Source: a virus
Reading direction: 5' to 3' (one strand)
Virus record (IMG/VR): IMGVR_UViG_3300021963_000392
Coordinates: 1-34,009 of that record
Length of the DNA stretch: 34,009 bases
Numbering within the stretch: position 1 is the stretch's first letter; each line of letters begins with the position of its first letter. This document shows positions 1,856 to 24,737 of the stretch, one piece after another. The notes under the pieces were generated by a model. That model saw only the letters and a list, made by a program, of their open reading frames with translations, was not told the origin of the DNA and ran no database searches. The position numbers and the translations under genes were made by a program.

Positions 1856-2060
1856 CAGTAAACGGCTTATTTAGTTCTTCAGTGTAAAGCCACTCTCTGT
1901 CTAGAGCTGCAAAGATTGGCTCACCTGTTGAGTTGTCTGCGTTTAGCATTTCAAGAAATGCTTGCTGTTGATCAGAATGATGCTTGCAAGCTAGTCGATA
2001 CCCGGCAAGGAATACCAAGATGCTTACTGATGCTGTTGCTAGAACTAGGGCAATAATCAT
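1845..2060 (-). CDS. Small single-pass membrane protein
   Basis: About 71 residues beginning MIIALVLATASVSILVFLAG, one hydrophobic segment followed by a polar tail rich in Asp, Glu and Gln. I chose the ATG at 2060, which overlaps the SSB stop as ATGA; an in-frame TTG at 2066 would add two residues. The charge pattern predicts a short outer N-terminus and a cytoplasmic tail, or a non-cleaved signal anchor. Function unknown; tiny membrane proteins recur in this operon. Confidence 0.6.
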   Translation of the reverse strand: MIIALVLATASVSILVFLAGYRLACKHHSDQQQAFLEMLNADNSTGEPIFAALDREWLYTEELNKPFTDEK

Positions 2061-2431
2061 AACCAAGGGTCACTTTCTAGGTTTACTTCTTTGGACTTGT
2101 TTGCTTTGACTACGGCTGCGATTTCATCAGCTGTAATTTCTACGGATGTGCGCTCTACACCGTTCTTATCTTCATACTTTGATACGCGAACCTTACCGAT
2201 AACTAGAATCGGCTGACCCTTTTTGAACTGGTCGGCTGCTGCATCTGCTAGACCACGCCACAAAACAATGTCGAAGTAGCTTGTTTCGCCGTCTGTCCAT
2301 GTGCCGTCTTGATTCTTACGGCGTTCGTTACACGCAATGCGCAACTTACAACGGCTAATGCCTGATGCTGTTACTTGAAAGTCTGGCTCAAAGACCAGAT
2401 TTCCCTGCGCTGTGATTGTTGGTAGTGCCAT
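2057..2431 (-). CDS. ssb: Single-stranded DNA-binding protein
   Basis: An OB-fold SSB of 124 residues from MALPTITAQGNLVFEPDF. Family blocks are visible: RCKLRIACNERR near residue 25, TSYFDIVLWRGLADAAADQFKKG near 47 to 70, and GKVRVSKYEDKNG near 75. The C-terminus ends ESDPWL, an acidic and hydrophobic tip that may play the partner-binding role of the bacterial DDDIPF tail. I preferred ATG 2431 over an in-frame ATG at 2461 because AGGA lies seven bases upstream and the longer form would run into the WhiB gene. It sits with RusA and the annealing protein, as expected for a recombination and replication module. Confidence 0.9.
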   Translation of the reverse strand: MALPTITAQGNLVFEPDFQVTASGISRCKLRIACNERRKNQDGTWTDGETSYFDIVLWRGLADAAADQFKKGQPILVIGKVRVSKYEDKNGVERTSVEITADEIAAVVKANKSKEVNLESDPWL

Positions 2432-2435
2432 TTTT

Positions 2436-2762
2436 TTATCCTGCTTCCTTTTGTCGCTCACGATAAATTCGTGAGTTTCTTGCTTCTTTTGTTTCTGGTT
2501 CTAACTTTCTTTTGTAATCTTCGTCAATCCTTACGGGTTCTATGTGAAAGAATCTACGAAGTTCTATGCGCTTTGCTTCTGTTGTGCCTGCCCAGTAGCC
2601 ATTAACTTTGACTTCTAGCGCGTATTGCAGGCAGTCATCGAACACATCACAGCTAAGGCAAATGCGCTTCAGCGTTGCTTCTGTGCTTGGAGCAATAGCC
2701 CCGGTTGGGAAAAACAACTCAGGGTCTACGCCTAAGCAGTTAGCCCGTGATGTATCAAACAT
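2436..2762 (-). CDS. WhiB-like iron-sulfur regulator
   Basis: 108 residues. The WhiB signature is complete: one Cys in ANCLGVDPELFFP near residue 8, then CLSC and a fourth Cys in DVFDDC near 35-44, and a GYWAGTTEAKR turn in place of the usual G[VI]WGGT. The C-terminal tail is strongly basic. WhiB proteins hold a 4Fe-4S cluster, bind the host principal sigma factor and are limited to actinobacteria and their phages. ATG 2762 was chosen because GAGG lies six bases before it; a longer frame to 2795 is less likely. It overlaps RusA by 8 bases. It probably redirects host or phage transcription. Confidence 0.9.
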   Translation of the reverse strand: MFDTSRANCLGVDPELFFPTGAIAPSTEATLKRICLSCDVFDDCLQYALEVKVNGYWAGTTEAKRIELRRFFHIEPVRIDEDYKRKLEPETKEARNSRIYRERQKEAG

Positions 2763-3174
2763 CTTGCACCTCACTTGCAATGACCTGACAACCAATACGA
2801 TCTGTGGCGTATTGCTTTGATGCGCTTAAAGCTATAACTAAGGCATCGTCTGTATAAAGTCCACCAGTTGTAAGCCCGTCAAAGGTGCTGCGAACTAACT
2901 TATCTAGGTCAGGTTTAACGGCAGGCCACTTACGAGTCACGGTCTTAGGTCTAGGCAAATGAAACACAAGGGCAATCTCTACCGGGGTAGTTAGTGTCCA
3001 CTGCTCAGCCATAGGCCATTTACTTGCTCTGTATTCCTGTGTAGCTGATGCAACGGCTTCGCGCCAAGGCTTAACCTTTTTGCTAGACTCAACCATGACC
3101 ACGCGACCATTCTTAACAAAGCCATTCTTTGAACCTTGCGGTGCTGGCTCGCCGTCAATCCAAAAGCTATACAT
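2755..3174 (-). CDS. rusA: RusA-like Holliday junction resolvase
   Basis: 139 residues. The N-terminus FWIDGEPAPQGSKNGF and the block KPDLDKLVRSTFDGL near residue 86, followed by YTDDALV near 107, are the RusA hallmarks; the clustered Asp residues coordinate the catalytic metal. RusA resolves branched DNA before packaging or during recombination, consistent with an annealing protein and SSB in the same operon. The start overlaps the previous gene by 8 bases, implying coupled translation. Family assignment is confident. Confidence 0.92.
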   Translation of the reverse strand: MYSFWIDGEPAPQGSKNGFVKNGRVVMVESSKKVKPWREAVASATQEYRASKWPMAEQWTLTTPVEIALVFHLPRPKTVTRKWPAVKPDLDKLVRSTFDGLTTGGLYTDDALVIALSASKQYATDRIGCQVIASEVQDV

Positions 3175-3463
3175 TGCCCACCCAGATCGCTAGAACTGCG
3201 CCGTGTGATTCTTTGCGCTTTGCTTTGCCGTAGCCAACTTTGCGAATCCAACCTGCACGCGCTGCCTTGTTCATAATTGCACCTGATGCGTTGTTCTTAT
3301 GCTGACCAACTCCACCGCTAGGAAGTCCAGTCATTGCTAGAACATCCTCGCTAGTGAACTCAGTGCCACGCTTTGCCAGTTGCAAGATCGCTACAAGTGC
3401 TTGGTCTGACCAATCAGGTTGAGCATCTAAAGCTAGTTGCATCCCTTGTTCTTTACTTGTCAT
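3167..3463 (-). CDS. Hypothetical, possible winged-helix protein
   Basis: 98 residues from MTSKEQGMQLALDAQPDW. TEFTSEDVLAMTGLPSGGVGQHKNNASGAIMNKAARAGWIRKVG resembles a small winged-helix arrangement in which GWIRKVGYGKAKRKESHG would be the wing. Similar proteins occur next to RusA in actinobacteriophages (recalled). The ATG at 3463 was preferred to an in-frame start at 3523, which would lie across the small membrane gene; GGGCGG precedes it. It may bind DNA in the recombination module, but this is inference. Confidence 0.65.
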   Translation of the reverse strand: MTSKEQGMQLALDAQPDWSDQALVAILQLAKRGTEFTSEDVLAMTGLPSGGVGQHKNNASGAIMNKAARAGWIRKVGYGKAKRKESHGAVLAIWVGNV

Positions 3464-3596
3464 CGCGCACCGCCCTAAGTGCCGGGTGGTTATCTGACGG
3501 TGGCAAGTTATCGCGTACTGCAAAGGCTAGAGCCATAAGAATCATGCCTAAGAATCCACCTAGTAGGAATAGGACTGCGCCTAGTAGAAATGTCAT
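3453..3596 (-). CDS. 47-residue single-pass membrane protein
   Basis: A short frame with start ATG 3596 overlapping the annealing-protein stop as ATGA, and a stop 11 bases inside the next gene. The product begins MTFLLGAVLFLLGGFLGMI, a strong membrane helix of about 25 residues, and ends in a soluble tail with Pro, Asp and Arg. Precise coupling on both sides supports it. Function unknown. Confidence 0.65.
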   Translation of the reverse strand: MTFLLGAVLFLLGGFLGMILMALAFAVRDNLPPSDNHPALRAVRDDK

Positions 3597-4156
3597 GCTC
3601 CCAACTCAACTTTCTTGTTGTCAAAGATAATGCGCAAGTTGCGCTTCTCTGCATCTGTAAATTCACCTGACTGAATCAACGGCACGATCTGGCTTAGTTC
3701 AACCAGTGATGCTGCGGTGTTGATGCGCTCAATCATTTTCTGAGTAGCTGTGCTTAAGTCTTTAGTTGCTTTAGGTGCTGGTTTTGTTTCCCCCGGTGCT
3801 TCCTTAGCCCAGAGATCAAGTGCTACGCCAAAGCGCATTGCTGCGTTTCTGATTGCGTTACCGATTGCGCCTTTAGTCATGTCGAACTTGTCACGACCCT
3901 GTGGTTCACCGTAGCCGTAGCGAGTAACACCACAAACCGTTAGTTCAATCCATAGACCGCCGTTTGAGTCAAAGGCTGGTAGTCCTGATTCTGTAAATGC
4001 TAAAGGCTTCCAAGTCCACATAGGGTCTACCTGAAGCAAGCGATCAGTTACCCAAGCGTGGCTAACGTAATCTAGTTGCAATCCGCCAGTTGGCAGTTTC
4101 TGTATTTGTTCTTTTGGAAATGGTGCGCGTAACGCATCCTGTTGTTCTTGCTTCAT
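3593..4156 (-). CDS. Rad52/ERF-like single-strand annealing protein
   Basis: 187 residues. The core runs from LRAPFPKEQIQKLPTGG through LQLDYVSHAWVTDRLLQVDP and WTWKPL to ELTVCGVTRYGYGEP, and ends in KGAIGNAIRNAAMRFGVALDLW near residue 95-116. This last block (K-x-A-x-x-x-A-x-x-x-A-x-x-R-x-G) is characteristic of Rad52-superfamily recombinases found in phages. The C-terminal 60 residues are a separate helical tail. It would pair complementary single strands with the SSB during replication-linked recombination. The superfamily is fairly sure; the exact subfamily cannot be set by eye. Confidence 0.8.
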   Translation of the reverse strand: MKQEQQDALRAPFPKEQIQKLPTGGLQLDYVSHAWVTDRLLQVDPMWTWKPLAFTESGLPAFDSNGGLWIELTVCGVTRYGYGEPQGRDKFDMTKGAIGNAIRNAAMRFGVALDLWAKEAPGETKPAPKATKDLSTATQKMIERINTAASLVELSQIVPLIQSGEFTDAEKRNLRIIFDNKKVELGA

Positions 4157-4374
4157 CGTGTTTCCTTTTCTGCTTTGATTTTGTTTAGCTTTTCGATAAT
4201 CGTTATAGCGTTCTGCTTACTCATTTTGTTAGGGTCTATTTCTCTATTGACTAGAGCGTTCATAAACTGCTTCTGGCTTGCATCTTCTTTAATCCCAATG
4301 CTCATTAGAAGTCGGTAGATAAGAAACTTCTGATCACGGCTTGCGTACTGCATACCTAAAGGAACGTAGCCCAT
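4153..4374 (-). CDS. Small helical hypothetical protein
   Basis: 73 residues. The middle reads SRDQKFLIYRLLMSIGIKED and KQNAITIIEKLNKI, the layout of short 'Q-x-x-x-L ... A-x-x-x-I-x-x-L' two-module helical proteins that lie beside phage recombinases. A good ribosome site (AGGTGG, six bases before ATG 4374) sets the start. The stop is coupled to the annealing protein by ATGA. A partner role for the annealing protein is suggested only by position. Confidence 0.65.
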   Translation of the reverse strand: MGYVPLGMQYASRDQKFLIYRLLMSIGIKEDASQKQFMNALVNREIDPNKMSKQNAITIIEKLNKIKAEKETR

Positions 4375-4496
4375 TAGTTACCACCTAGCGCAAACCAAGT
4401 GCCAACGAATAAGACGTACGCAATACCGATAACGGCGAGTGCTTGCAATAGTGCGCCGATCATTTTGGCGCGTGGTGTCCAGTTCCAGTTACGCAT
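4374..4496 (-). CDS. 40-residue membrane protein
   Basis: A short frame starting ATG 4496 with GGAG seven bases upstream. The product starts MRNWNWTPRAKMIGALLQAL and continues through a hydrophobic stretch (AVIGIAYVLFVGTWFAL) to the end: one membrane helix with a basic cytoplasmic-like head. The stop overlaps the next ATG as TAATG and the start overlaps the previous stop. The sequence, ribosome site and junctions all support a real gene. Function unknown. Confidence 0.7.
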   Translation of the reverse strand: MRNWNWTPRAKMIGALLQALAVIGIAYVLFVGTWFALGGN

Positions 4497-4695
4497 TTTG
4501 TAACTCCATTTCTAAAACGTATTTGAACGCATACTCTTTTGCTTGGGCGTAGCTGTTGGCATAAGCAACTGTTTCAATTTGTGCTTCGTCAAAGACGTAC
4601 CAGCAACAACGGCATTCATTCTGTCGCGCCCATAGAACGTCAGTTCCAGCTACTCGATAGCCACCGATTGAGTCTTTAACTGCTTTAAGTTTCAT
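4489..4695 (-). CDS. Small hypothetical protein
   Basis: 68 residues, not recognised. It begins MKLKAVKDSIGGYRVAGTD, contains a Cys cluster NECRCCWYV near residue 27 and ends in a helix (AQAKEYAFKYVLEMELQNA). It resembles short beta-beta-alpha host-takeover or double-stranded-RNA-binding-like folds only loosely. It is coupled to the preceding gene by an ATGA overlap. Function unknown. Confidence 0.6.
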   Translation of the reverse strand: MKLKAVKDSIGGYRVAGTDVLWARQNECRCCWYVFDEAQIETVAYANSYAQAKEYAFKYVLEMELQNA

Positions 4696-4955
4696 TGTGC
4701 ATCTACCTTTGTTGCTTTGCGTTCTGCTTGTTTTTTAGTCAGTTGTGCCTTACATTTGGAACACTCAGTTAAAGCTAACAACTGGGTAAAAGTTGCTTTT
4801 TCTAAAGCTTTGACATGTAGGGAACGACTACCGAAATTCATTCCTGATTTGCACTGCATTTCGCCTGCAATAACAGCGTGGGTCTTGCCACTTGACATAG
4901 AACCATCATTACAAATAGTGCCCGTTAAATATTTACCTTGATAAGTTAATTTCAT
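4692..4955 (-). CDS. Hypothetical protein, first gene of a promoter-led unit
   Basis: 87 residues, family not recognised. The N-terminal two thirds are polar with Gly and Ser (KYLTGTICNDGSMSSGKTH), and a CSKC knuckle near residue 66 precedes a very basic tail (KKQAERKATKVDAQ). It follows a 120-base non-coding stretch containing a good promoter, so it is the first gene of a transcript that runs through the recombination genes. The AAGGAAAC sequence before the ATG acts as ribosome site. Confidence 0.6.
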   Translation of the reverse strand: MKLTYQGKYLTGTICNDGSMSSGKTHAVIAGEMQCKSGMNFGSRSLHVKALEKATFTQLLALTECSKCKAQLTKKQAERKATKVDAQ

Positions 4956-4995
4956 TGCTTTGTTTCCTTAATCCTAGAACCTTGCGGTTCGCTTA

Positions 4996-5024
4996 TGTAT
5001 AACGCTACTGCATATGGCAGACAA
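4996..5024 (-). promoter_or_regulatory. Sigma-70-type promoter before the recombination operon
   Basis: On the minus strand TTGTCT (5024-5019) and TATACA (5001-4996) are separated by exactly 17 bases, in the only AT-rich non-coding stretch of the left arm (4956-5075). Transcription would start near 4989, about 34 bases before the ATG at 4955. A short hairpin (GAACC-GCAA-GGTTC) lies in the leader. Both hexamers match four of six consensus bases; spacing is ideal. Confidence 0.55.
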
Positions 5025-5075
5025 TTTTTACCATTTCAGCTATCTTTTTTTATTTATTTTCTTCGTACATTTGTT

Positions 5076-5465
5076 CTAATTTGTATAGGCAAAAACCCTT
5101 AGAAATCGGCGTTTTTCTAGTTTCTCTTTAGGGACTTTGCCAGATTTGCTTAGCTTGTAGCGTTCTTCAGGGGTCATACCGCCCCACATACCCCATTTTT
5201 CTTCTAGCCCGATCTCTAGGCAGAAGCCCACAACTGGGCATTCTTCACACAATCGCCGGGCTATGTCGTAAAGGTGGGGTTCGTCATCTTCAGGAAAGCA
5301 AGTATCCGGGTGAGCATCGTTGCACGCTGCCTTATGCATCCAGCCTTCAGGAGCAGAACAGATTAGGCACATGCCTGAATCTAGCCACTCCTCATGCTCA
5401 CAGTCTTTAATCATTAGACCATTATGGTCGCTTGAGTCCCATTTCCACCAATTTGGCGCGTACAT
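5076..5465 (-). CDS. WhiB-like regulator with N-terminal Cys/His extension
   Basis: 129 residues. The WhiB core starts at MHKAACNDAHPDTCFP near residue 43, with CEECPVVGFC near 73 and GMWGGMTPEERYKL near 91, the standard cluster-binding and sigma-contact motifs. The first 40 residues are an extra module with C-E-H-E-E-W and C-L-I-C, a likely zinc knuckle. ATG 5465 overlaps the previous gene by 44 bases with only AAGG 11 bases upstream; an in-frame ATG at 5414 would keep the Cys/His module and avoid overlap, so the start is uncertain. This is the second WhiB protein of the window. Confidence 0.88.
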   Translation of the reverse strand: MYAPNWWKWDSSDHNGLMIKDCEHEEWLDSGMCLICSAPEGWMHKAACNDAHPDTCFPEDDEPHLYDIARRLCEECPVVGFCLEIGLEEKWGMWGGMTPEERYKLSKSGKVPKEKLEKRRFLRVFAYTN

Positions 5466-5763
5466 CGTCAGGCATACCTTGTGACTTAGGGCTTGAACCT
5501 AGCTCTTTAGCCTTAGTCTTTTCTAGTTCACGCTCACGTTCAGACTTCCATTTAGCCACAACATTTACAGGCATAAACACTTCAGATGAAACCCGGTAAT
5601 GCTCTTTAGCGCACTTAGCAGCGAATGCGTAAGGCACTTCATCGCCAACAATAACCAGCCAAGCTTTAGCCATCAGTTCTTTCTCTGTATCGTCACGCCT
5701 TGAAACTCTAGGGTCAATCAAACTAATCGTGCCTAGCAGTTGCGCCATCTCAGCTGCGTTCAT
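5422..5763 (-). CDS. Helicase-loader-like protein
   Basis: 113 residues from MNAAEMAQLLGTISLIDPRV. The arrangement of a short N-terminal helix, AWLVIVGDEVPYAFAAKCAKEHY near residue 35 and VFMPVNVVAKWKSERERELE near 63 resembles the N-terminal domain of phage helicase loaders of the G39P type and similar small proteins next to replication initiators in actinobacteriophages. No replicative helicase gene is present, so it would load a host DnaB. ATG 5763 overlaps the previous stop as ATGA; an upstream in-frame start at 5814 lies inside the replication gene. Role inferred from motif layout and position. Confidence 0.6.
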   Translation of the reverse strand: MNAAEMAQLLGTISLIDPRVSRRDDTEKELMAKAWLVIVGDEVPYAFAAKCAKEHYRVSSEVFMPVNVVAKWKSERERELEKTKAKELGSSPKSQGMPDDVRAKLVEMGLKRP

Positions 5764-6539
5764 TGCCCTAGTTCCTTTGACTGATTTGAGAGTTTGTTTA
5801 TGACATTCGCCCAACCTGATAAGCCACTGCCACTAGATTTCATCTTCAGTTGCAATGCGCCAAATTGTTTGCGTAACTTTGCCGGGCTTAACACGTTAGA
5901 TCGCCAGAACGAATCCTGCTGCACCCAGCGAATCGTTTGCTCAATCTGTTCGTAGCTGTAACCATCTAAGCGGTTAAGGCGTTCAATCTCTTGATGCCAT
6001 TTGTCAGTCACGTCAGGTCGCTTAATGCCGTTGGCTTCAATTAGGTCTGCTAACAGATTTGAGAGTTGAGTTATCTCGACACCGTAGGTGCGAGTAGTAA
6101 GTTCTTTGGTTCTAAGTTCTATATGGTTATTAGTTTGTGCATCGTTTTTGGGGCTACCCGTAGCATCATTTTTGGGGCTACCTACCCTCGTTTTTGATGC
6201 TAGGTAGTTGCATAAATGAGTGCTGGCTGTGTGCATGTGATACAGGTTAGAAGTCCAGTCACCTGTTTCATTCTTGCGCTTGATGTAGCAGATAGCACCA
6301 ATGGCTATCAGTTCTGTTTTTGCTCTATCAACTGTTGCGATAGATGAACCCATTTGCTCTGCAAGTTTTTTGCGTGACCAGTAACTTGTGCCGCGCTTGT
6401 TATCGCCGTTCTTGCGTAGCACTAAATAAAGTTTTATGGCCGTAGCTGATACGTCAGACTCAAATACCCAGTTAGGTATCTGTTGGAACGGAAGTGGTTC
6501 AACGTGTATTTCGTCTGTGTCTTGACTAAGATTGTGCAT
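5760..6539 (-). CDS. Winged-helix replication initiator-like protein
   Basis: 259 residues. The first half has a winged helix-turn-helix: SATAIKLYLVLRKNGDN near residue 30, SRKKLAEQMGSSIATVDRAKTELIAIGAI near 55 to 85, then a wing. A linker carries a tandem SPKNDATGSPKNDA repeat. The second half (YSYEQIEQTIRWVQQDSFWRSNVLSPAKLRKQF) matches the DnaD C-terminal pattern seen in phage replisome organisers. ATG 6539 was chosen because GAGAGG is five bases upstream. It is followed directly by the loader-like gene, as in lambda O-P type modules. The repeats that encode the linker are candidate origin iterons. Confidence 0.8.
   Translation of the reverse strand: MHNLSQDTDEIHVEPLPFQQIPNWVFESDVSATAIKLYLVLRKNGDNKRGTSYWSRKKLAEQMGSSIATVDRAKTELIAIGAICYIKRKNETGDWTSNLYHMHTASTHLCNYLASKTRVGSPKNDATGSPKNDAQTNNHIELRTKELTTRTYGVEITQLSNLLADLIEANGIKRPDVTDKWHQEIERLNRLDGYSYEQIEQTIRWVQQDSFWRSNVLSPAKLRKQFGALQLKMKSSGSGLSGWANVINKLSNQSKELGQ
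6139..6207. repeat. Iteron-like direct repeats inside the replication gene
   Basis: Two 24-base units (6139-6162 and 6163-6186) share TTTTTGGGGCTACC and the preceding CATC. A third, degenerate copy follows (TCGTTTTTGATGCTAGG, 6188-6204), spaced 22 bases. They encode the linker repeat of the winged-helix protein. Origins inside initiator genes with iterons are known from lambdoid phages and plasmids. The repeat is seen directly; origin function is inferred. Confidence 0.55.
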
Positions 6540-6561
6540 AAGCACCTCTCACTAGGTGTTT

Positions 6562-6610: not shown

Positions 6611-6916
6611 CTAGATGTTCTCTTGGAACTCGACCTTAGACCACTTAAGGCGCAAAGCTTCTGCTACTGCTTGACGTTCAATCTCAGGCAGGTTAGCAAT
6701 TTCATCTAGGCTAACTTCAACCATTTCAGAACCGCAAAGGAACTCTAGAACGGCAACCATTACTAGCTGATGTTCGTCAAACTCAGGTTCGTCAATGTTG
6801 TCTATAACTTCCCAGACCTTAGCCCAATCAACCGGGGTAACGGCATCGTGATTCTGGAATAGCTTGTGTTCAGCCATCCACGTTGTCTGCACCAACTGTT
6901 CGCTTGGTGTTCTCAT
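6611..6916 (-). CDS. Acidic hypothetical protein
   Basis: 101 residues from MRTPSEQLVQTTWMAEHKLF, very acidic in its middle (VIDNIDEPEFDEHQLV) and ending in a helix with ALRLKWSKVEF. No family recognised. ATG 6916 overlaps the ribbon-helix-helix stop as ATGA and has GGAG six bases upstream, so the longer frame starting at 6991 is rejected. The coupling to a DNA-binding regulator could mean the pair works together, but there is no toxin-antitoxin motif to prove it. Confidence 0.65.
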   Translation of the reverse strand: MRTPSEQLVQTTWMAEHKLFQNHDAVTPVDWAKVWEVIDNIDEPEFDEHQLVMVAVLEFLCGSEMVEVSLDEIANLPEIERQAVAEALRLKWSKVEFQENI

Positions 6917-7071
6917 TGCTTTGCTCCTGTCATTAGTTCTATTGCTGATCTGATCACTTGACTTACATTTGCGTTGTGTTGATGCGCCCACTGTCTAACT
7001 GCAAGCATCTGCTCATTGTTAAGCCGCAGAGCAATTAGATTCTCTTTTGTTTCTTTCTGTTCGTCAGCCAT
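6913..7071 (-). CDS. Ribbon-helix-helix DNA-binding protein
   Basis: 52 residues starting MADEQKETKENLIALRLNNE. The strand LIALRLNNEQ, a first helix MLAVRQWAHQHN, the turn ANVSQV and a second helix IRSAIELMTG give the ribbon-helix-helix pattern of Arc/CopG-type repressors, which bind DNA as dimers through the N-terminal strand. ATG 7071 has a strong AAGGAAGGG site; a longer frame from 7155 would lie within the Mom-like gene and is rejected. It may repress the early genes or the neighbouring modification gene. Family fairly sure, targets unknown. Confidence 0.78.
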   Translation of the reverse strand: MADEQKETKENLIALRLNNEQMLAVRQWAHQHNANVSQVIRSAIELMTGAKQ

Positions 7072-7729
7072 TGCTAACCCTTCCTTTTGGATACGGCTGT
7101 ATTTCATACCGCAAGTCTTTAAGCATTTGTTTGCGTTGTGTTTTAGAACCAACAAAGATTATGTAACGGTGCTTTCTAGATCGCTCAATAAAGTAAACGT
7201 TGTCCTCGCCGTACTTTTCTTTCAGCTGCGCGTTAGTCAATCCATGAGCATAAGTTGCATGATGCTGATGTTCTAGGCCGCGTACTACTGGGTCAAGAAA
7301 CTTGCTACTCAATCCCGTATAGAGAAAGTTTGTAGCTTGATAAACAATGCCTTCATGGTTCTGCTTTGTGTCTGCATAACTAACAATGATGCTGGGCTTA
7401 GGCAGTAACTTTAATGATGCGCCAACTAATCTGCTGGCTTCATGTGGTTTGTTATTAACTAATACAAGGCGGTTCAGTTCTAGAACGTGCTGCGCCCATT
7501 GCTCACCGCAGACACCGCGCAACAATGTTGATGAAGCTGGCGTGCCATAAGTAACTACGCCAACTAATGCGCCATGCTCAAACAATCCAAAGGCGTAAGT
7601 TATTGAAGGCTTGCGGCGTGCGTAATGCACATTCAGTATTAGATGCTCTGCATCTTGAGTCTGGATAGGCTGCACTGCGTAGCCTTCTAGCACGTCAAAG
7701 AAACTTGACTGCCATTCCATCTGCTTCAT
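7064..7729 (-). CDS. Mom-like DNA adenine modification protein
   Basis: 221 residues resembling the Mu Mom family, GNAT-fold enzymes that convert adenine in DNA to N6-carbamoylmethyladenine and so protect phage DNA from restriction. Visible blocks: HYARRKPSITYAFGLFE near residue 35, LVGVVTYGTPAS near 55, VLELNRLVL near 83, EASRLVGASLKLLPKPSIIVSYAD near 96 to 120, then HEGIVYQATNFLYTGLSS. The ELNRL and S-x-A-D segments are the most diagnostic. The C-terminal part (YFIERSRKHRYIIFVGSKTQRKQM) is basic. It starts a transcript after a weak terminator and is coupled to the ribbon-helix-helix gene. Family by recalled pattern; activity untested. Confidence 0.72.
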   Translation of the reverse strand: MKQMEWQSSFFDVLEGYAVQPIQTQDAEHLILNVHYARRKPSITYAFGLFEHGALVGVVTYGTPASSTLLRGVCGEQWAQHVLELNRLVLVNNKPHEASRLVGASLKLLPKPSIIVSYADTKQNHEGIVYQATNFLYTGLSSKFLDPVVRGLEHQHHATYAHGLTNAQLKEKYGEDNVYFIERSRKHRYIIFVGSKTQRKQMLKDLRYEIQPYPKGRVSNG

Positions 7730-7760
7730 AGTTTGAGGTTATACAGGTTGTATGACAAAT

Positions 7761-7805: not shown

Positions 7806-8048
7806 CTAGCTTTCACAGTCATCTACTAAACCATCTTCTATGTCGTTCATAACTTCATCCCAGAGTTCAGCTTTAGTCATGCTGTGACGATCAAATTCAT
7901 AACATAAGACTCCACATAAATTAGATTCCCAGAATTTGCCCTGCGGTGCGAGTATTTCAATTTCTTCAAAATCGTATTTACCGGGATCTTGCGTTAGCAA
8001 TGCACCTAGCTTATCTAGTGCTTTTATGACTTGTTGCTTTGTTGCCAT
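7806..8048 (-). CDS. Acidic hypothetical protein
   Basis: 80 residues, family not recognised. It begins MATKQQVIKALDKLGALL and continues with a strand-rich centre (KYDFEEIEILAPQGKFW) and an acidic end (ELWDEVMNDIEDGLVDDCES). The acidic charge would suit a DNA-mimic or a partner-binding protein, but nothing specific shows this. It is the only gene between two hairpins and directly follows a promoter-like sequence, so it could be separately expressed. GGAGCAAGACA before the ATG is a good ribosome site. Confidence 0.62.
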   Translation of the reverse strand: MATKQQVIKALDKLGALLTQDPGKYDFEEIEILAPQGKFWESNLCGVLCYEFDRHSMTKAELWDEVMNDIEDGLVDDCES

Positions 8049-8092: not shown

Positions 8093-8121
8093 AGTTTAGC
8101 ATACTTTGTTATACAGTGCAA
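8093..8121 (-). promoter_or_regulatory. Candidate promoter after the 8150-8191 terminator
   Basis: On the minus strand TTGCAC (8121-8116) and TAAACT (8098-8093) are 17 bases apart. The -10 fits the actinobacterial TAnnnT pattern; the -35 is weak. It lies just downstream of a strong terminator and upstream of the gene at 8048, where a new transcript would be expected. Confidence 0.4.
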
Positions 8122-15787: not shown

Positions 15788-18046
15788 TTACGCGCTCGCA
15801 AATACCGGGCCACTGGCACGCTCGTATCTCTTAATGGCATCTACAATTTCACGACCAATAGAAGCACCGTCTGCGCCCATACCTGCGTTCACGGTTAGGT
15901 TGATTGTGTTGCCCATACCTGCATTGCGACCTGATAACGGCACAACAGCTTCAGGCCCGGCTTCACCGATAAGTGCAAGCGTTGGCCCGGTAACAATGCC
16001 ACCCTTAGCAAAGGCAGGGACTTCAACTCCAAGAGATGCAGCAAGGGCTTCAATGTCTTTGCGTTCACCAGCACTGATCTTTGTGCCCTTTTTGGACTTC
16101 TTGCTTCTAGCCTTTTCGATTGCCTTATTGACTTGATCTATGCCAGCCTGATTTACGATTGTGCCAGTTGCAGAAATGCTAAACCCAGCAGCAGCGATAG
16201 CCGCCTTGACACCTTCAACTAATGCTTCACCTGATGTAACGCCTGCTTGATAGAACTGAGTAGCAGCAGATTCACCAACGGCATCAGCTACGGATTGTGT
16301 GGCACTAACTAAAGTATTGACTTGATCTACTACGGTTGCGCCACCGGCAATGATTTCATCTGCAATCTTTATGCCTGCATCTGCACCAGCCGATAGCACC
16401 TGACTAATGGCAGATTCAGACAGACCCATTGCTAGTAACTGCCTGACCTTAGTTCCAAAGTCAGCAGCCTTAGCAGCTTGAGCAACAAGGTTCTCTAAGA
16501 ATGTTCCAGTTTCTGCACCAGCAGCAGAAGTGAAACTTAAGACTGAGGTAATAGAACTTGAAACTGAACGAGCATAGTCAGAGAACTTAGCCTTTGCTTC
16601 ATTCAAGATCGCGCCAGCATTGCTTAGGGCTTCAGTTAATTTAGCAATCTTTTCAGCAGCGTTCTTGCTTGCACCACCAACAGATTTGCCAGCCTTGCCA
16701 CCGCCACCACCGGGAGCGTCAATCGCTTCAGCTAGTGATTGTGCTTCAGCAGCAATAGCCGAAAGATTAGTTTGTTCTTCTTTTAACTTATTGCTGAAAT
16801 TAGTAAAGCCAGCAGCAGCTGAATCAACAGTTGAAACTAAGCCACTAAAGTTCAAGGTGAGTTCATTTATCTTTGGGTTCTTTAAGATGCCTGTGAATAA
16901 GGCATTGTAGCCCTTGATGAATCCGTTAATTACAAAGATAAAAGCGTTGCCAACTTTAGATAGACCAACTGCAATAGTTCTAAAGACCTTGAGAGTAGCT
17001 TCACCCCAAGTCATAGTGGCATCAGTGCCTTTGACCATAGCCGTTACAATTCCCAAAATAACCAGAGGAATCAACACAACTCTTTTAGTTAAAACTTGGA
17101 ACGCAGTTGCTAACCCATTAACCATCTTGATCATGTAACCAACGGCGATCATTGCCGGGCCAAGTGCAGCAGCAAAGAAACCAATTTGTACGCCTGTAAC
17201 AATGGCGTTAGGTGAAAGAGTCTTAAAGGCTTCGATGAACTTCTGCATCTGTGGCAATACCTGATTACGGATAACGCCGACCACGTTGATCATAATAGGC
17301 ATGAACACTGCGCCGAATGTTCCAGATAAGTCCTCAACCTGTGCAGCCAAGAATTTCTTTTGATTAGCAAGACCGCCAGCAGTACGCGCTACGTCACCCT
17401 GCTGAAGTGCAGTATCTCTAAGAATCAAAGCGTAAGCAGCCTGTGACTTTTGTGCCACAGTTAAAACGCCTTGACCGTCATAAATCTTTAGGTTCAATGC
17501 TTCTTGACGTAGGCGCACATCGTTAAGAGCTACACCAAATCGCTTTAGTGGTTCTGTTTCCCCGGATAGACCAGATCGCAAAGCAGTCAATGCTTCTTCG
17601 ATAGGTACGTTATTGAACGATGCCATGTCAGCAGCAAGTTCGACAAGTTTCCTAGACATCTTTGCGGCTTCAACTTCACCAATGCCAAAGGCTTGGAATA
17701 AGTTGCCATAAGTTCCAGCAGCTTCTAAGGCTGAACGTGCAGAAACGCCAAAGGATGCAGACATTGTTTTAGACCAAGCAGTAACAGTGGCAGCCTGTGA
17801 CTTGAAAACAGCATTTACCTTTGACTGTGCTTCGCCCAAATTAGATGCATCGTTAATTGACTTGTTAATAACAACGGCAGCACCAGCCAGAGGAACGCTG
17901 ATGCTTTTAGTTAAAGATTGCCCAGTGCTTGTCAGGCTAGTTGATAACTTACCTGCTGATCTTTGTAGCTTTTGAATTGAGTTAGTCAGGTCAGTGGTGT
18001 TGCCAGTAAATTTGACTTCAAAATTCTTGCTTGCGGTGTTTGCCAC
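15788..18046 (-). CDS. Tail tape measure protein
   Basis: 752 residues, the longest tail gene, with GTG start 18046 and an ACTTAGGAG ribosome site. The N-terminal region has LTNSIQKLQRSAGKLSTSLTS and the NFEVKF start of phage TMPs, then an Ala/Ser-rich helical body, a hydrophobic centre (VVLIPLVILGIVTAMVKG; AIVTGVQIGFFAAALGPAM), a Gly-rich linker (GGGGGKAGKSVGG) and the C-terminal FAKGGIVTGPTLALIGEAGPEAVVPL motif typical of tape measures. At roughly 0.15 nm per residue the tail would be near 110 nm. Siphovirus assignment rests mainly on this gene. Confidence 0.93.
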   Translation of the reverse strand: MANTASKNFEVKFTGNTTDLTNSIQKLQRSAGKLSTSLTSTGQSLTKSISVPLAGAAVVINKSINDASNLGEAQSKVNAVFKSQAATVTAWSKTMSASFGVSARSALEAAGTYGNLFQAFGIGEVEAAKMSRKLVELAADMASFNNVPIEEALTALRSGLSGETEPLKRFGVALNDVRLRQEALNLKIYDGQGVLTVAQKSQAAYALILRDTALQQGDVARTAGGLANQKKFLAAQVEDLSGTFGAVFMPIMINVVGVIRNQVLPQMQKFIEAFKTLSPNAIVTGVQIGFFAAALGPAMIAVGYMIKMVNGLATAFQVLTKRVVLIPLVILGIVTAMVKGTDATMTWGEATLKVFRTIAVGLSKVGNAFIFVINGFIKGYNALFTGILKNPKINELTLNFSGLVSTVDSAAAGFTNFSNKLKEEQTNLSAIAAEAQSLAEAIDAPGGGGGKAGKSVGGASKNAAEKIAKLTEALSNAGAILNEAKAKFSDYARSVSSSITSVLSFTSAAGAETGTFLENLVAQAAKAADFGTKVRQLLAMGLSESAISQVLSAGADAGIKIADEIIAGGATVVDQVNTLVSATQSVADAVGESAATQFYQAGVTSGEALVEGVKAAIAAAGFSISATGTIVNQAGIDQVNKAIEKARSKKSKKGTKISAGERKDIEALAASLGVEVPAFAKGGIVTGPTLALIGEAGPEAVVPLSGRNAGMGNTINLTVNAGMGADGASIGREIVDAIKRYERASGPVFASA

Positions 18047-18054
18047 TAAAACTC

Positions 18055-18780
18055 CTAAGTGGCAGAAGTACCTGCCATCAACTCCAAGAACTCTCGGCGT
18101 ATGTCCTGCCGTATTTCTTTCTGACTCATACCATTGTACCTAGACAAATCTAAGTCTTGAAATTCTATTTCACACTTCTGGCATCTCTTAGTAAGAGTGC
18201 AGGTACAAGCCCAGTAATCGGTCTGACGGTTTGACTCACGCCTTGTGGTGTTTACAGGTGGTCTATCTGAGTAGCGATGCTCAGGTGCTTGCATAATCTC
18301 GCCATGTCCACGCAAGGTATGAAACACGGAATCAGGTGCGTGCTGTGGTGCGAAGAAAATACGGGCAGGGTCGCTGGTCTGTGGGTCACCAACAATGTCT
18401 AGGAACTCGTGCATCTGCTTCCAGACTGAATACCACTGGTGGCTAGGTACAGGTTCATCAAAAGGAATTACAATGTGCCAGTGCTGGTCATCTTCCTTAT
18501 GGCTGTAAGTCGTGTAGGCAATGTATTCATAGCCTTGCAGTTTGTCTAACGTATTGGCTAAGGCTTCGCCGTCAAGGTCAGCAACAAAGGCATTGATCTC
18601 TATGACGTTCTTATTGCCACGATAACCGTTCTCAACGTAGGTAACTGGGCTGTATAGATAGCCCTTGTACTTATCCTCACGGCAGGCGTGATGCGAAAGT
18701 AGCTGAACAAAGTCAGCCCACGATTCGGCATAAGGCTTTGGCTTGTTGTCTTTGACAGACCACCACTTGACTGCGTACAT
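18055..18780 (-). CDS. Archaeo-eukaryotic primase-like protein in the tail operon
   Basis: 241 residues, not a known tail-protein type. AFVADLDGE (Asp68, Asp70) matches the h-D-h-D metal motif of the AEP superfamily; YTTYSHKEDDQHWHIVIPF (residues 89-107) matches the second His-containing strand, and SDPARIFFAPQH near 136 matches the 'D-P-x-R-hydrophobic-P' block of plasmid and phage RepB/primase-type proteins. C192, C194, C200 and C203 form a possible zinc knuckle in the C-terminal tail. No helicase domain follows. The HWH could also recall HUH Rep proteins, but the rest fits AEP better. It sits between tape measure and gp10-like genes; the window has no other primase. Confidence 0.65.
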   Translation of the reverse strand: MYAVKWWSVKDNKPKPYAESWADFVQLLSHHACREDKYKGYLYSPVTYVENGYRGNKNVIEINAFVADLDGEALANTLDKLQGYEYIAYTTYSHKEDDQHWHIVIPFDEPVPSHQWYSVWKQMHEFLDIVGDPQTSDPARIFFAPQHAPDSVFHTLRGHGEIMQAPEHRYSDRPPVNTTRRESNRQTDYWACTCTLTKRCQKCEIEFQDLDLSRYNGMSQKEIRQDIRREFLELMAGTSAT

Positions 18781-18799
18781 ACTCCAGAGGTTAGCAGAT

Positions 18800-18830
18800 G
18801 TTATACGCTAAATCAACTACATTCTTTCAA
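18800..18830 (-). promoter_or_regulatory. Candidate promoter before the primase-like gene
   Basis: On the minus strand TTGAAA (18830-18825) and TATAAC (18805-18800) both match five of six consensus bases, but are 19 bases apart, which is long. Transcription would start near 18793, leaving a very short leader before ATG 18780. This would allow the primase-like gene to be expressed apart from the tail genes. Confidence 0.35.
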
Positions 18831-19359
18831 GCCGTTTTGTTATGGAATCTAGGGCTTTTATGTATTCAGAGTTGATCTTTGGAGCCATAGCTTCGATAGT
18901 AGGCCAGAACCAATAACCCCGGTTTCCGTTGCCTAATTTAGGCGATCTGCGTGGGAATTGGCGCAGGCGGTCAGAACCAAATTCAGAGCCAAAGAATACA
19001 TCGCCACGAGTAACCTTCTGCTTACGCTTGCGATTAGGTCTGCTCTTAGATACAAACCCACCAGAAGCGTTTAACTTGATAACCGGGATACGGTCTGGTC
19101 TAGCTCTAAAACCCTTGGCAGCTTCCATTGCCTGACGTGGATTATCAGCGTAAGTTGCATGTGTTTGAACCTCTGTAACCACTTGACCAATCAAGGCAAC
19201 AGATGCTTTACGAATCTCTTGGTTAAACATAGGGTCAGCAGCAGCGGCACGCTTAAGGAATTCTGGCAAGCCAACTATTTGAACTTGAATCTCTGTGCCA
19301 CGATGGGGTACTAATGAAGCACCACCAGCGCGACCAGTTAGTAACTGACTAGATGCCAT
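18817..19359 (-). CDS. HK97 gp10-like tail completion protein
   Basis: 180 residues. IQVQIVGLPEFLKRAAAAD near residue 25, a long helix with EIRKASVALIGQVVTEV, and the end block GDVFFGSEFGSDRLRQFPRR followed by GNRGYWFWPTIEAM are the pattern of gp10-like minor structural proteins that join head and tail. It is normally placed before the major tail gene; here it follows the tail assembly chaperone by two bases, an unusual order. Basic C-terminal portion (RPNRKRKQKV). Family likely, exact position in the particle inferred. Confidence 0.75.
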   Translation of the reverse strand: MASSQLLTGRAGGASLVPHRGTEIQVQIVGLPEFLKRAAAADPMFNQEIRKASVALIGQVVTEVQTHATYADNPRQAMEAAKGFRARPDRIPVIKLNASGGFVSKSRPNRKRKQKVTRGDVFFGSEFGSDRLRQFPRRSPKLGNGNRGYWFWPTIEAMAPKINSEYIKALDSITKRLERM

Positions 19360-21223: not shown

Positions 21224-22084
21224 CTACTTGCGTTCTGCTAATGCCCTACGGATACCTTCACGCAAACTAATCTGAGGTTTGAAGTAATGATGCGACTGAT
21301 AAGGATTACCCACACGATACTGAACCCCAACTGGCGCAGTAAGGATGTGGTTAAAGATTGGCTTGATTCCTGCTTCCTCACAGACCATAGAAGCCAAGTC
21401 ATTAAAGCTAGTAGGTACGCCTGAGCATAGATTCCAAGTACCGTCATACCCAGTCTGAACGTGCCAAAGCACAGCTTGAACAATGTCCTCAATGTGTATG
21501 AAGTCGCGTACCTGCTCACCGTCACCCCAAATGTCAAAGACTTCTACCCCGGCTAGAGCGCGGTCAATGAAACTAGGAAACGGGTAATCAGCATCTTGGT
21601 CTGAGCCGTAGCCGCTAAACGGTCTGAAGATAAACATCTTGGAATCAGTTACAAATTGGGCAAGGTACTCCCCGGTTAATTTTGCCCAGCCATAAGTTAG
21701 ATCAGGATTACTAACTGCATCTAGGCGAATGTCTGACTCTGCTAAACGGTATCTGTGTTCTGGCTTTTGTAGCTCGATTGGGTAAGCAGCAGAACTAGAG
21801 AAGTAGACCACGTTTTTAGGCTTAGTCTTTTGCACCCAGTTAAAGAACTCTGCATCTATGGATAAGTCTGTGGCTACGCTTAGTGGCTCACCTTCGATAG
21901 TTGCGCGACCACCAACAATGGCGGCTAGATGAATTACTAGATCAAACTGTTCTTCGTTGCGCTTAAAGAAATCTCGGCAATCGTGTCCGTCTTTTAAGTC
22001 AATGCCCCTAATCTTGCTATTAGGTAAAGCCTTTACAAAGTTACGACCAACAAAGCCCTTATGCCCAGTGATAAGTATGTTCAT
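21224..22084 (-). CDS. NAD-dependent sugar epimerase/dehydratase
   Basis: 286 residues of the short-chain dehydrogenase, extended type. MNILITGHKGFVGRNFV gives the G-x-x-G-x-x-G nucleotide loop, VIHLAAIVGG near 52 follows, and YGWAKLTGEYLAQF near 144 is the Y-x-x-x-K catalytic pair; FIFRPFSGYG and WGDGEQVRDFIHIEDIV are sugar-binding motifs of GDP-fucose synthase/UDP-sugar epimerase types. ATG 22084 overlaps the previous stop as TAATG; a TTG two codons upstream is less likely. It probably prepares a nucleotide sugar for the three glycosyltransferases transcribed with it. The exact sugar cannot be told. Confidence 0.88.
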   Translation of the reverse strand: MNILITGHKGFVGRNFVKALPNSKIRGIDLKDGHDCRDFFKRNEEQFDLVIHLAAIVGGRATIEGEPLSVATDLSIDAEFFNWVQKTKPKNVVYFSSSAAYPIELQKPEHRYRLAESDIRLDAVSNPDLTYGWAKLTGEYLAQFVTDSKMFIFRPFSGYGSDQDADYPFPSFIDRALAGVEVFDIWGDGEQVRDFIHIEDIVQAVLWHVQTGYDGTWNLCSGVPTSFNDLASMVCEEAGIKPIFNHILTAPVGVQYRVGNPYQSHHYFKPQISLREGIRRALAERK

Positions 22085-22758
22085 TACCAAGCCTTTACGT
22101 TCTCAACATCGTTAGCAAATTCAGTGGCAAGGTACTCAGTAAAAATAGCCTGATCGCCGTTGTGCATCTCTGGGTTATTTACAGCTGCGTATCTGTCATC
22201 GTGTTCAGCCTTGCCGTTTGTGTAGTGCAAGTGTTCAATGATTACATCTGGCAAGTAGTTCACGTTCTCTAAAGCGTGACCCATTGCAAGCCAGTAGTTG
22301 TCTAGGAACAAATGCTTTAGGGCTGGCGGTGACATAAATCCAGTAGCCCTAATGATCTTGCTAGACATAACTACGGCAGTTGGCAGGTTCTCGCCTTGCA
22401 GTAAATCGTTACCGTAAGCAATGCCGGGCTGATCGCCAATGGCTTCTGCAAGTTTCGTATCCCAGCCACCAGTGCGCGGTAGGTGGTCATCACCCATAAA
22501 GCAGATGTAGTCATAGTCAGGCGCAAACCATAAAGCCCAGTGGTTAAGAGTGCCGTTCATTCCCATTCGATTAGCAATGCAGACTTTGACGTTATCTAGC
22601 CCAGCCGTTTCTGCCATAAGTCCGTTATAGGTTTTCACGTCATCTGCATCTATTGCAAAGACAACTTCTGTAAAGTCTGCCGTTGCGTTAATAGCTTCAA
22701 ACAAACGAATCGCATTATCGTTGCGACCACGAGTAGGAATAATCGTAAGCATTCTCAT
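22084..22758 (-). CDS. Glycosyltransferase, GT-A-like
   Basis: 224 residues. MLTIIPTRGRNDNAIRLFEA is the start of a GT-A nucleotide-sugar fold, VVFAIDADDVKTYNGL near 33 and YDYICFMGDDHLPRTGGWD near 81 supply the acidic metal-binding motif, here D-D-H instead of D-x-D. NRMGMNGTLNHWAL near 62 is typical of phage glycosyltransferases of this type. ATGA overlaps tie it to both neighbours in the cassette. It would add a sugar to a virion protein or wall polymer; acceptor unknown. Confidence 0.82.
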   Translation of the reverse strand: MRMLTIIPTRGRNDNAIRLFEAINATADFTEVVFAIDADDVKTYNGLMAETAGLDNVKVCIANRMGMNGTLNHWALWFAPDYDYICFMGDDHLPRTGGWDTKLAEAIGDQPGIAYGNDLLQGENLPTAVVMSSKIIRATGFMSPPALKHLFLDNYWLAMGHALENVNYLPDVIIEHLHYTNGKAEHDDRYAAVNNPEMHNGDQAIFTEYLATEFANDVENVKAW

Positions 22759-23558
22759 TGTTGTACCAATCTCCAGAAGGTGTCCCCGGCTTTATCTATC
22801 ATGTGTCTTAAGTGATCTGCATCTTGCCAATCTTCAACTGACGTAATGCCTACGTTCTCGTTAGTGTGAATCCTGCAACCTGAAAGTACGGCTTCCATAA
22901 CTGCGCGACATTCAGACTCAAACGCTAACGGTAAATGCACAAACCATTCACACCTTGCCATAGCATCTAGGACTTGTTCACGCGGTACATCTGTAAGAGC
23001 CTTGAACTCATAACCTGCCTGCGCTGCCCAAAGTTCTGCTTTAAGTCTGCCTTTAAGTGGGTGGTTACGCGCTGCCCATAATGCAAACGGTTTCTTGTCC
23101 ATGTGGTCATAGCACTTAGAAGTATCAAAGTAACTAAGAACCTGAGCAGTCTTGCGTGGCTTTGACCATTGCAACTCTCTGCGCATGTGTGCTGGCGTAT
23201 GGGTTACGAATAAGCGACTGCCTGCAATCAAAGCTAGAAGCCCTGCGCGTGGTGTCTGTAAGTGATGCACAAATACGAACGGGTCATGCTTGCTTAATTC
23301 GTATAACTGAACATCTGAGAACGCATCTGTGCCAGTGACTATGACTGAATCAAATTGACTAGGTTCATACACATCGAATGTGTACGGCGTGACAATCTGT
23401 ATCTCAAAGCCCAAAGGTGCTTGCAAGCGGTATTCGTAGTCTGACATTTCTGCGCCACCTGCGAACTGCCCACTGAATAGCCCTGTGGGACTCACAGAAG
23501 CACCGTGAGCCACTTTAGGGTCATTCTCTATGTGATGTGTATACCAGCCTATCTTCAC
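22755..23558 (-). CDS. Glycosyltransferase, GT-B-like
   Basis: 267 residues. The N-terminal half has FAGGAEMSDYEYRLQAPLG and VFVHHLQTPRAG, the second half KPFALWAARNHPLKGRLKA and the donor-site region FVHLPLAFESECRAVMEAVLSGC followed by RIHTNENVG. The E-S-x-x-R-A-V-M-E-A-x-L-S-G-C segment corresponds to the E-x7-E motif of retaining GT4-type enzymes. It is shorter than a full two-domain enzyme (usually 350-400 residues) and may be a minimal version. Genes on each side act on sugars, which supports the role. Confidence 0.78.
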   Translation of the reverse strand: MKIGWYTHHIENDPKVAHGASVSPTGLFSGQFAGGAEMSDYEYRLQAPLGFEIQIVTPYTFDVYEPSQFDSVIVTGTDAFSDVQLYELSKHDPFVFVHHLQTPRAGLLALIAGSRLFVTHTPAHMRRELQWSKPRKTAQVLSYFDTSKCYDHMDKKPFALWAARNHPLKGRLKAELWAAQAGYEFKALTDVPREQVLDAMARCEWFVHLPLAFESECRAVMEAVLSGCRIHTNENVGITSVEDWQDADHLRHMIDKAGDTFWRLVQQ

Positions 23559-23561
23559 GCT

Positions 23562-24737
23562 CTACATCCGTTCTAGGGCTTTGGACTCCAGAACCTTTAG
23601 TGCAGGTTTCCAGTGTTCCTCAAAGACCGTGTCTGCGTTATACGCCTTAGCAAACTCCTGTGCCTTTTCTGACCTGCCACGACCACGCTGGTACGCCTGC
23701 TCTAGCGCATCGACAATGCTCGGAACGCTAGGCATGTGAAACCAACTGGCCTGCGGTGCATCCCATAGTGGCTGGCCTTCAATTAACCACCCGTCACCCA
23801 GTAGCTCGCTTGAAGCCGCAAAGTCAGAAACGATAACTGGCGTGCCACAGGCTTGCGCTTCGATTGTAGGAATACCAAACCCTTCGCCGTATGAGGTAGC
23901 AAGTAGCACATCCATAGCTGTGTAGATCGTCGCTAGGGTCTGCTGTTCAATTCCTGTGCGATAGGTGTAGGGATCAACAAACCTAAACTTTTCCTCTGGT
24001 ACTCCACAGGACTGAAGCAGTTGCATTAACTTGATTCCACCGAGTGCGCCTAGCTGATCGGTGTGCAGATAGAGAACTACATCATCGTGCTGCTGGGCAA
24101 ACATAGAAAACGCCAAAATGTTCTCACCGAATGCTTTGCGGTTAGGGCTAACGCCCTTATTAGCGGCGTTCATCCCGACAACAAACTTATCTTCGTCGAT
24201 GCCTATGTAGTCACGCCCAGTAGTTCCCTTGTGTCGTTTCATTGGCTTAAAGACTGACTCGATACCGTGTGGCACATAAAGGGATTCGATACCTACGTTC
24301 TCAATCATTGCCTGACCGTATTGGCTCATGGCCACAGGAGTTACAAAGTCATTTCGCAACCACTTAGTTACTTCTGGGGGTGCAGGAATGTGATCAACCG
24401 GAACCCAAGAAGCTACGTTCCAGTCGCTCCACCTTTCCCCTTTGAATACCCAGACGTCATATAGCGTGAAAAGAATGTGCGGTTGCTTTGGATGGCGCGA
24501 AGTCCAGTCGTGCATATGTGCTGGAACTACGTCGTTTGAGTAAAGGTCTGCGCCACGTTGATAAACGGGCATCCCTTCCCAATCGGTGTTAGAACCTTCT
24601 AGTCCGTAGTTGTTAAAGATTGCAACATCGTGACCTAGTGCTTTGAGTCGTTGAGTGACTTGCGCTGTTTGTGTGCCGTAACCAGTCGCAGCCCACGGCG
24701 CGTTAGAGTTCCAGCCAATACATAGGGGTTTAGACAC
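23562..24737 (-). CDS. Glycosyltransferase family 4
   Basis: 391 residues with GTG start 24737 and AAGGA six bases upstream. The N-terminal SNAPWAATGYGTQTAQVTQRLKALGHDV and the C-terminal ATSYGEGFGIPTIEAQACGTPVIVSDFAASSELLG (E-x7-E motif at GFGIPTIEAQACG) are classical for GT4 enzymes; VGMNAANKGVSPNRK lies in the linker. First gene of the sugar cassette, right after the capsid terminator, and preceded by a dyad motif like the one at 9935-9958. It probably transfers sugars onto virion proteins or the host envelope; this is inference. Confidence 0.9.
   Translation of the reverse strand: MSKPLCIGWNSNAPWAATGYGTQTAQVTQRLKALGHDVAIFNNYGLEGSNTDWEGMPVYQRGADLYSNDVVPAHMHDWTSRHPKQPHILFTLYDVWVFKGERWSDWNVASWVPVDHIPAPPEVTKWLRNDFVTPVAMSQYGQAMIENVGIESLYVPHGIESVFKPMKRHKGTTGRDYIGIDEDKFVVGMNAANKGVSPNRKAFGENILAFSMFAQQHDDVVLYLHTDQLGALGGIKLMQLLQSCGVPEEKFRFVDPYTYRTGIEQQTLATIYTAMDVLLATSYGEGFGIPTIEAQACGTPVIVSDFAASSELLGDGWLIEGQPLWDAPQASWFHMPSVPSIVDALEQAYQRGRGRSEKAQEFAKAYNADTVFEEHWKPALKVLESKALERM

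Follow-up and report, generated by a model that had tools for sequence, protein, structure and literature searches.

A gene coding for a stand-alone AEP (archaeo-eukaryotic primase), a protein of the primase-polymerase fold, is fixed at one tail-gene site across a large lineage of uncultured aquatic actinophages. We describe it from a viral sequence of 34,009 nucleotides (IMG/VR record IMGVR_UViG_3300021963_000392; this whole stretch is referred to as the window), in which sequence profiles and structure models support the gene product as a member of the AEP superfamily, and it is predicted to be a minimal stand-alone nucleotidyltransferase. The reading that we favor, and to which we give close to an even chance, is that the gene encodes an auxiliary AEP under its own regulation, probably expressed early, with a permanent place in the tail operon, and that this AEP is not the sole replicative primase. 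The features of the window that bear on this are collected in Table 1.

Table 1. Coordinates of features in the window
Feature	Position	Strand	Remarks
Stand-alone AEP CDS (primase-polymerase fold)	18055..18780	-	Single-domain, 241 aa; ATG start
D68-L69-D70 codons, AEP motif I (metal ligands)	18571..18579	-	Invariant; counterpart of S-2L E85/D87 by order and spacing
H100-W101-H102 codons, AEP motif II position (nucleotide binding)	18475..18483	-	Both His invariant; placed by alignment and hhalign
D132 (motif III) to R140 (motif IV) codons	18361..18387	-	Within GDPQTSDPAR; invariant residues
C192-x-C194-x5-C200-x2-C203 codons, putative Zn knuckle	18172..18207	-	Near clade only
Predicted AEP promoter	18788..18816	-	-35 TTGATT (18816-18811), 17-nt spacer, -10 TAACCT (18793-18788; TAnnnT); ends 7 nt before ATG
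GTATAACA in AEP promoter spacer	18799..18806	-	Right half of TAKAC-N5-GTATAAC; left half degraded in window
Conserved 180-aa tail-operon protein	18817..19359	-	Always directly upstream of AEP gene
Tape measure gene	15788..18046	-	Directly downstream of AEP gene; phrog_1535 E 3.8e-34; GTG start
Mom-like DNA modification gene	7064..7729	-	PF25680 E 2.5e-39; upstream element in common with AEP promoter
Related inverted repeat CATAC-N5-GTATAAC	7738..7754	-	Upstream of Mom-like gene
GTATAACA-N5-TGCTA	8097..8114	-	Within TTGCAC-N17-TAAACT promoter-like pair, upstream of early gene 7806-8048
O/DnaD-like replication initiator of the window's clade	5760..6545	-	phrog_391 E 1.3e-22
SSB	2057-2461
RusA	2755-3174
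SSAP	3593-4156

Family assignment and active site

The reading frame is real: it has relatives in 37 other viral contigs at 80 to 100% identity, the alignment of 23 near relatives (80 to 97% identical to the window protein) has a mean column identity of 90%, and the gene is under strong purifying selection, with a median dN/dS of 0.10 compared with 0.17 for its 180-aa upstream neighbor. The initial annotation had proposed a primase of the AEP type from D-L-D (residues 68-70), HWHIVIPF (100-107), and SDPARIFF (136-143), which are present in the order claimed, and the profile searches and structure predictions that it recommended both agree with the proposal. Four PHROG families of phage primases or primase-helicases match the protein, the best being phrog_9765 (DNA primase; E 8.5e-18, residues 34-154), which is matched by 40/40 members of a diverse alignment of the family. 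No PHROG tail family matched, and there was no full-length match of the kind that the annotation had named as evidence to the contrary. When the family is aligned by hhalign with the N-terminal domains of five phage primase-helicases, residues 2-164 match with 99.5% probability (E 1.1e-22), and tblastn against cultured phages returns, among the records listed, mainly primase, helicase, and primase-helicase genes at ∼25% identity, none of the 196 records covering 80% of the query.

Several other searches gave no match. Pfam has none for the window protein and nothing convincing for 40 family members; the PF09250 (Prim-Pol) profile matches 0/40 members, though it does match the replicases of the same genomes; PDB chains searched with the single sequence and with the profile gave no sequence match, and PADLOC defense-system profiles gave none to the AEP protein. 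An hhalign comparison of alignments A4 and A6, which bears on whether the gene is a recent duplicate of the phages' own Prim-Pol, also gave no match, A6 consisting of only four partly truncated sequences.

An RRM-like AEP catalytic fold is present in both AlphaFold models (m661e572add6a and mc5111961e95b), one of a near member (built from 40 sequences, mean pLDDT 81) and one of a far member (built from 11 distant sequences, mean pLDDT 72). The AEP domain of the cyanophage S-2L PrimPol (PDB 6zp9) is the top match and closest solved fold to both, at Z 9.1, rmsd 3.5 Å, and 135 aligned residues for the near member and Z 8.6, rmsd 3.3 Å, and 126 aligned residues for the far one. The next matches are mainly RepB', CAPP, and LigD-Pol, with Pri1 for the near member; the non-AEP protein HP0184 (2atz) is also among the leading matches of both models, the other leading rows being mostly AEPs, and the tool itself cautions that a Z below 8 does not decide the matter. 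The assignment is also carried, independently of the structure matches, by the sequence tests. In a viral structure library the closest relative carries only the annotation "uncharacterized."

Among 37 representatives clustered at 90% identity and spanning down to 37% identity, Y48, D68, D70, T91, S93, H100, H102, D132, D137, and R140 are invariant (37/37). The AEP motif I pattern hhhDhD/E is thus present as AFVAD68LD70, and at the motif II position H100-x-H102 is invariant, with a loose fit to the sxH consensus; D132 fits motif III (hD/E) and R140 the Arg of motif IV. The S-2L PrimPol, the AEP domain of which is by itself an active polymerase, has an active site of Y63 (a steric gate), E85/D87, T112, H118, D146, and R157 (PMC8065100). 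Y48, D68/D70, T91/S93, H102 (with H100), D132, and R140 follow in the same order and at nearly the same spacing, a mapping made by sequence order and alignments as distinct from coordinate superposition. The catalytic motifs appear intact, and metal-dependent nucleotidyl transfer is predicted. An HUH endonuclease (Rep or relaxase) was considered for the H-x-H pair and rejected, as no downstream Tyr is conserved in the 37 representatives.

The phage primase-helicase N-termini (PHROG 9765, 256, 2135, and 3228; replicative proteins of the VirE and Guernseyvirinae types) are homologous to residues 2-164 and share the pattern R54, D68, D70, Y89, D132, and R140, with D132 and R140 invariant in this comparison also. 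They differ in having Arg where the AEP family has the invariant H102, as seen in both the alignment and hhalign, and in being mostly fused to or beside a helicase in the replication block, whereas the AEP described here stands alone among tail genes. The motif II His is known to vary among AEP families, with Gln, Arg, or Lys in its place (PMC5862659). The S-2L PrimPol is also distinguished by its PriCT-2 and helicase parts, by being its phage's only polymerase, and by an identity of only ∼11 to 17% to the AEP. Stand-alone AEPs of C48C1 (314 aa) and Vibrio phage 2.058.O (308 aa) are separate genes related by sequence, but they are longer and sit in blocks together with genes for polymerase, helicase, or repair functions. 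Human PrimPol and the LigD polymerase domain have the fold in common with the AEP, and any likeness to human PrimPol as an auxiliary repriming enzyme is one of role, by analogy only.

The C-terminal third of the family varies freely. The four-Cys knuckle noted initially (Cys 192, 194, 200, and 203) is present and is invariant in the near clade, but it is confined to that clade and absent from distant relatives. A C-terminal Zn knuckle is needed for priming by human PrimPol (PMC10415149).

Position among the tail genes and transcription

Loci were gathered via the AEP itself, via the upstream 180-aa gene, and via the tail terminator gene (four genes upstream), the last being the least biased of the three collections. 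The same 180-aa gene stands in front of the AEP for 148/148 distinct AEP sequences, a long ORF in the tape-measure position lies directly downstream in 135 of the 136 with enough contig, and the AEP gene is present in all 63 of the sufficiently long loci collected by way of the tail terminator gene. This ORF is a recognizable tape measure gene in the window and the near clade; in distant relatives the call is made mostly by position and length, with weak similarity in a few. In the window the AEP gene is 36 bp from the 180-aa gene, and its stop codon is 8 bp from the tape measure gene. The initial annotation placed it correctly between these two genes, although the "gp10-like" label given to the upstream one is unsupported by PHROGs or Pfam.

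IMG/VR holds more than 480 relatives of the AEP, and scans of GTDB genomes by short peptide patterns found no prophage or host copies. Two WhiB genes (PF02467) at 2436-2795 and 5076-5465 indicate that the window phage is an actinophage, WhiB having been used as a marker of such phages (PMC6802176). In the open-access literature we found no paper that describes an AEP next to a tape measure gene, and a tail-operon family of stand-alone AEPs has apparently not been described previously. We note that the genes at the two ends of the window (1 and 34009) adjoin one another in relatives such as G002; the window is therefore probably a circularly permuted genome that is almost complete. Within the structural operon, genes for a sugar epimerase and a glycosyltransferase (21224-24737) separate the major head protein gene from that of the head-tail adaptor, and a gene for an HslV/proteasome-like peptidase is present at 339-902 (phrog_1040 E 3.7e-21; Pfam Proteasome E 1.3e-4).

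In the near clade and in most of the far ones, the AEP gene is immediately preceded by a -35/-10 pair that keeps a fixed place within each clade, with boxes of actinobacterial type (TTGACT, TTGATT, TAGACA, or TTGCAT, 16 to 18 nt, and TAnnnT). Of the 81 unique regions upstream of AEP genes, 52 have a -35 with at least five of six matches together with TAnnnT, compared with 0/89 upstream of the neighboring gene and 2 to 5% of shuffles. When a PWM is trained on near-clade promoters, the AEP site is by a wide margin its best-scoring site in each of the near genomes, a partly circular result in that the AEP sites trained it. The promoter proposed initially (TTGAAA/TATAAC) has a 19-nt spacer and is not the conserved pair, which is TTGATT-N17-TAACCT. 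Both TATAAC as a -10 box and GTATAACA-N2-TGCTA as a promoter were dropped, the -10 of distant relatives sitting further downstream. Because a predicted dedicated promoter lies directly before it, the AEP gene is probably its own transcription unit and not just another member of the late operon.

In one far subgroup, the AEP gene is preceded by a small variable ORF and a gene for a 46-aa RHH protein (RHH_1 E 4e-6), and a promoter-like region carrying TTGTCTTAC twice lies in front of all three. An operator search of far RHH-type genomes located the paired TTGTCTTAC solely ahead of the RHH/AEP unit. At eight loci (L172, L184, L185, L189, L193, L202, L206, and L219) this appears as a small cargo unit in the tail operon, no more than ∼400 bp upstream of the AEP gene, made up of one of two unrelated small ORFs and the 46-aa RHH protein behind the paired TTGTCTTAC.

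The near-clade AEP promoters also share an element with early-region genes. This element is the inverted repeat TAKAC-N5-GTATAAC, of which exact copies occur at 10 sites in the six near genomes (window excluded) and nowhere else in them; six are the AEP promoters, and the other four are early-region intergenic sites, three before DNA-modification genes (Mom or C5-methyltransferase-like) and one before a small early gene. Allowing up to two mismatches brings the counts close to the chance level, and so only exact matches are counted; in the window the element has one mismatch at the Mom site and two at the AEP site. This common element, which is an argument for the near clade, suggests a link of the AEP to early expression there. 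The gene directly after Mom (6913-7155) has a weak profile match to RHH proteins, and its product is a candidate regulator of the element. The DNA-modification gene is itself a site of exchange in the window (7064-7729) and in G001, G004, G005, and G006, being Mom-like in the window and G006, N-methyltransferase-like in G001, and C5-methyltransferase-like in G004 and G005, with a similar upstream region close before each.

Replication modules and possible roles of the AEP

The AEP gene is far from the replication genes of the window (SSB, RusA, SSAP, and O/DnaD-like, all within 2057-6545), as claimed initially, and searches of the window for a second AEP, Prim-Pol, Toprim_2, or DnaB found none, also in line with the initial annotation. 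All seven near records (the window and its six near relatives) encode an O/DnaD-like initiator (phrog_391), and none of them has a Prim-Pol. The distant records of at least 25.8 kb have the reverse, with a Prim-Pol elsewhere in 7/7 (PF09250, E 1e-41 to 1e-46; for two of them, fusion with an AAA_25 domain was shown) and no O-like initiator; shorter records have neither, as expected of fragments. Since the AEP is kept in all 7 near and 7 distant records while the type of initiator is swapped, the replication module has been exchanged, with the AEP remaining in the structural module. The suggestion that the AEP is the phage's own primase, relocated to the late operon, is supported as regards the AEP type, but it is weakened by the Prim-Pol in the distant records, where the AEP is not the only primase of the lineage, and by the O/DnaD-like initiator in the window's clade.

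These observations, with a Prim-Pol in distant records, an O-like initiator in near ones, and the AEP in all, argue against a role as sole primase, and the early link of the auxiliary enzyme that we favor comes from the promoter element of the near clade. The gene would form its own, probably early, transcription unit between the 180-aa and tape measure genes, and the enzyme, presumably active, would be synthesized either ahead of the tail proteins or without dependence on them. Acting in the cytoplasm, it would serve phage DNA as an auxiliary primase-polymerase (in repriming, gap filling, or end repair), alongside whatever replication system a given phage has. Such a role does not account for the strict linkage to tail genes. 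In ORF904 and NrS-1 PrimPol, moreover, a helix-bundle/PriCT domain is needed for priming but not for extension (PMC8718748), and the AEP family, which lacks this domain, may therefore be a polymerase or transferase and not a primase.

It is unlikely, in our judgment, that the near-clade AEP is a relocated replicative primase that primes O/DnaD-started replication in place of host DnaG. No other primase is present in the window or the six near relatives, the active-site residues are intact, the relatives of the AEP are N-terminal domains of replicative primase-helicases, and the window's clade has a putative Zn knuckle as in human PrimPol. However, distant relatives keep the gene in place despite their Prim-Pol replicase, O/DnaD-type initiators normally recruit host DnaB and DnaG, and the AEP has no helix-bundle domain. 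The small size of the protein and the lack of helicase and helix-bundle domains could also fit an idle fold that only binds DNA, for example as a regulator, yet the catalytic motif residues are invariant in the 37 representatives while the C-terminal third varies freely, and we consider this highly improbable. A host-takeover or counterdefense protein with an AEP fold, made early with the DNA-modification gene, would fit the promoter element common to the AEP and Mom/methyltransferase genes, and the RHH regulator and variable small ORFs before the AEP in some relatives are typical of accessory early genes. Unlike typical accessory genes, though, the AEP is strongly conserved and present in every lineage member examined, and the lack of a PADLOC defense-family match also speaks against this reading, which is quite unlikely.

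Another reading is an enzyme carried in the virion, as the initial annotation had also suggested; it would be packaged with the tail beside the tape measure protein, injected, and act on the incoming DNA (e.g., in end fill-in or repair). The fixed site between two tail-operon genes and the presence at every tail-terminator locus are in its favor, as is the fact that the AEP goes with the structural module when the replication module changes; a structural protein, however, would have no need of a dedicated promoter (a mild objection) or of the near-clade early-region element, and we regard it as decidedly unlikely. More broadly, there is a small chance that the AEP is tied functionally to the virion, whether it is packaged or acts as the DNA enters or leaves, and that for this reason it is passed on with the tail module instead of the replication module.

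Phage AEPs are usually regarded as replication enzymes of replication blocks. The AEP of this lineage has been kept through a complete exchange of replication machinery, which sets it apart from bulk replication. A role in the virion would be the most interesting reading of its strict tail-gene site, and its retention points to an undescribed auxiliary step of DNA synthesis in phages of abundant aquatic actinobacteria.
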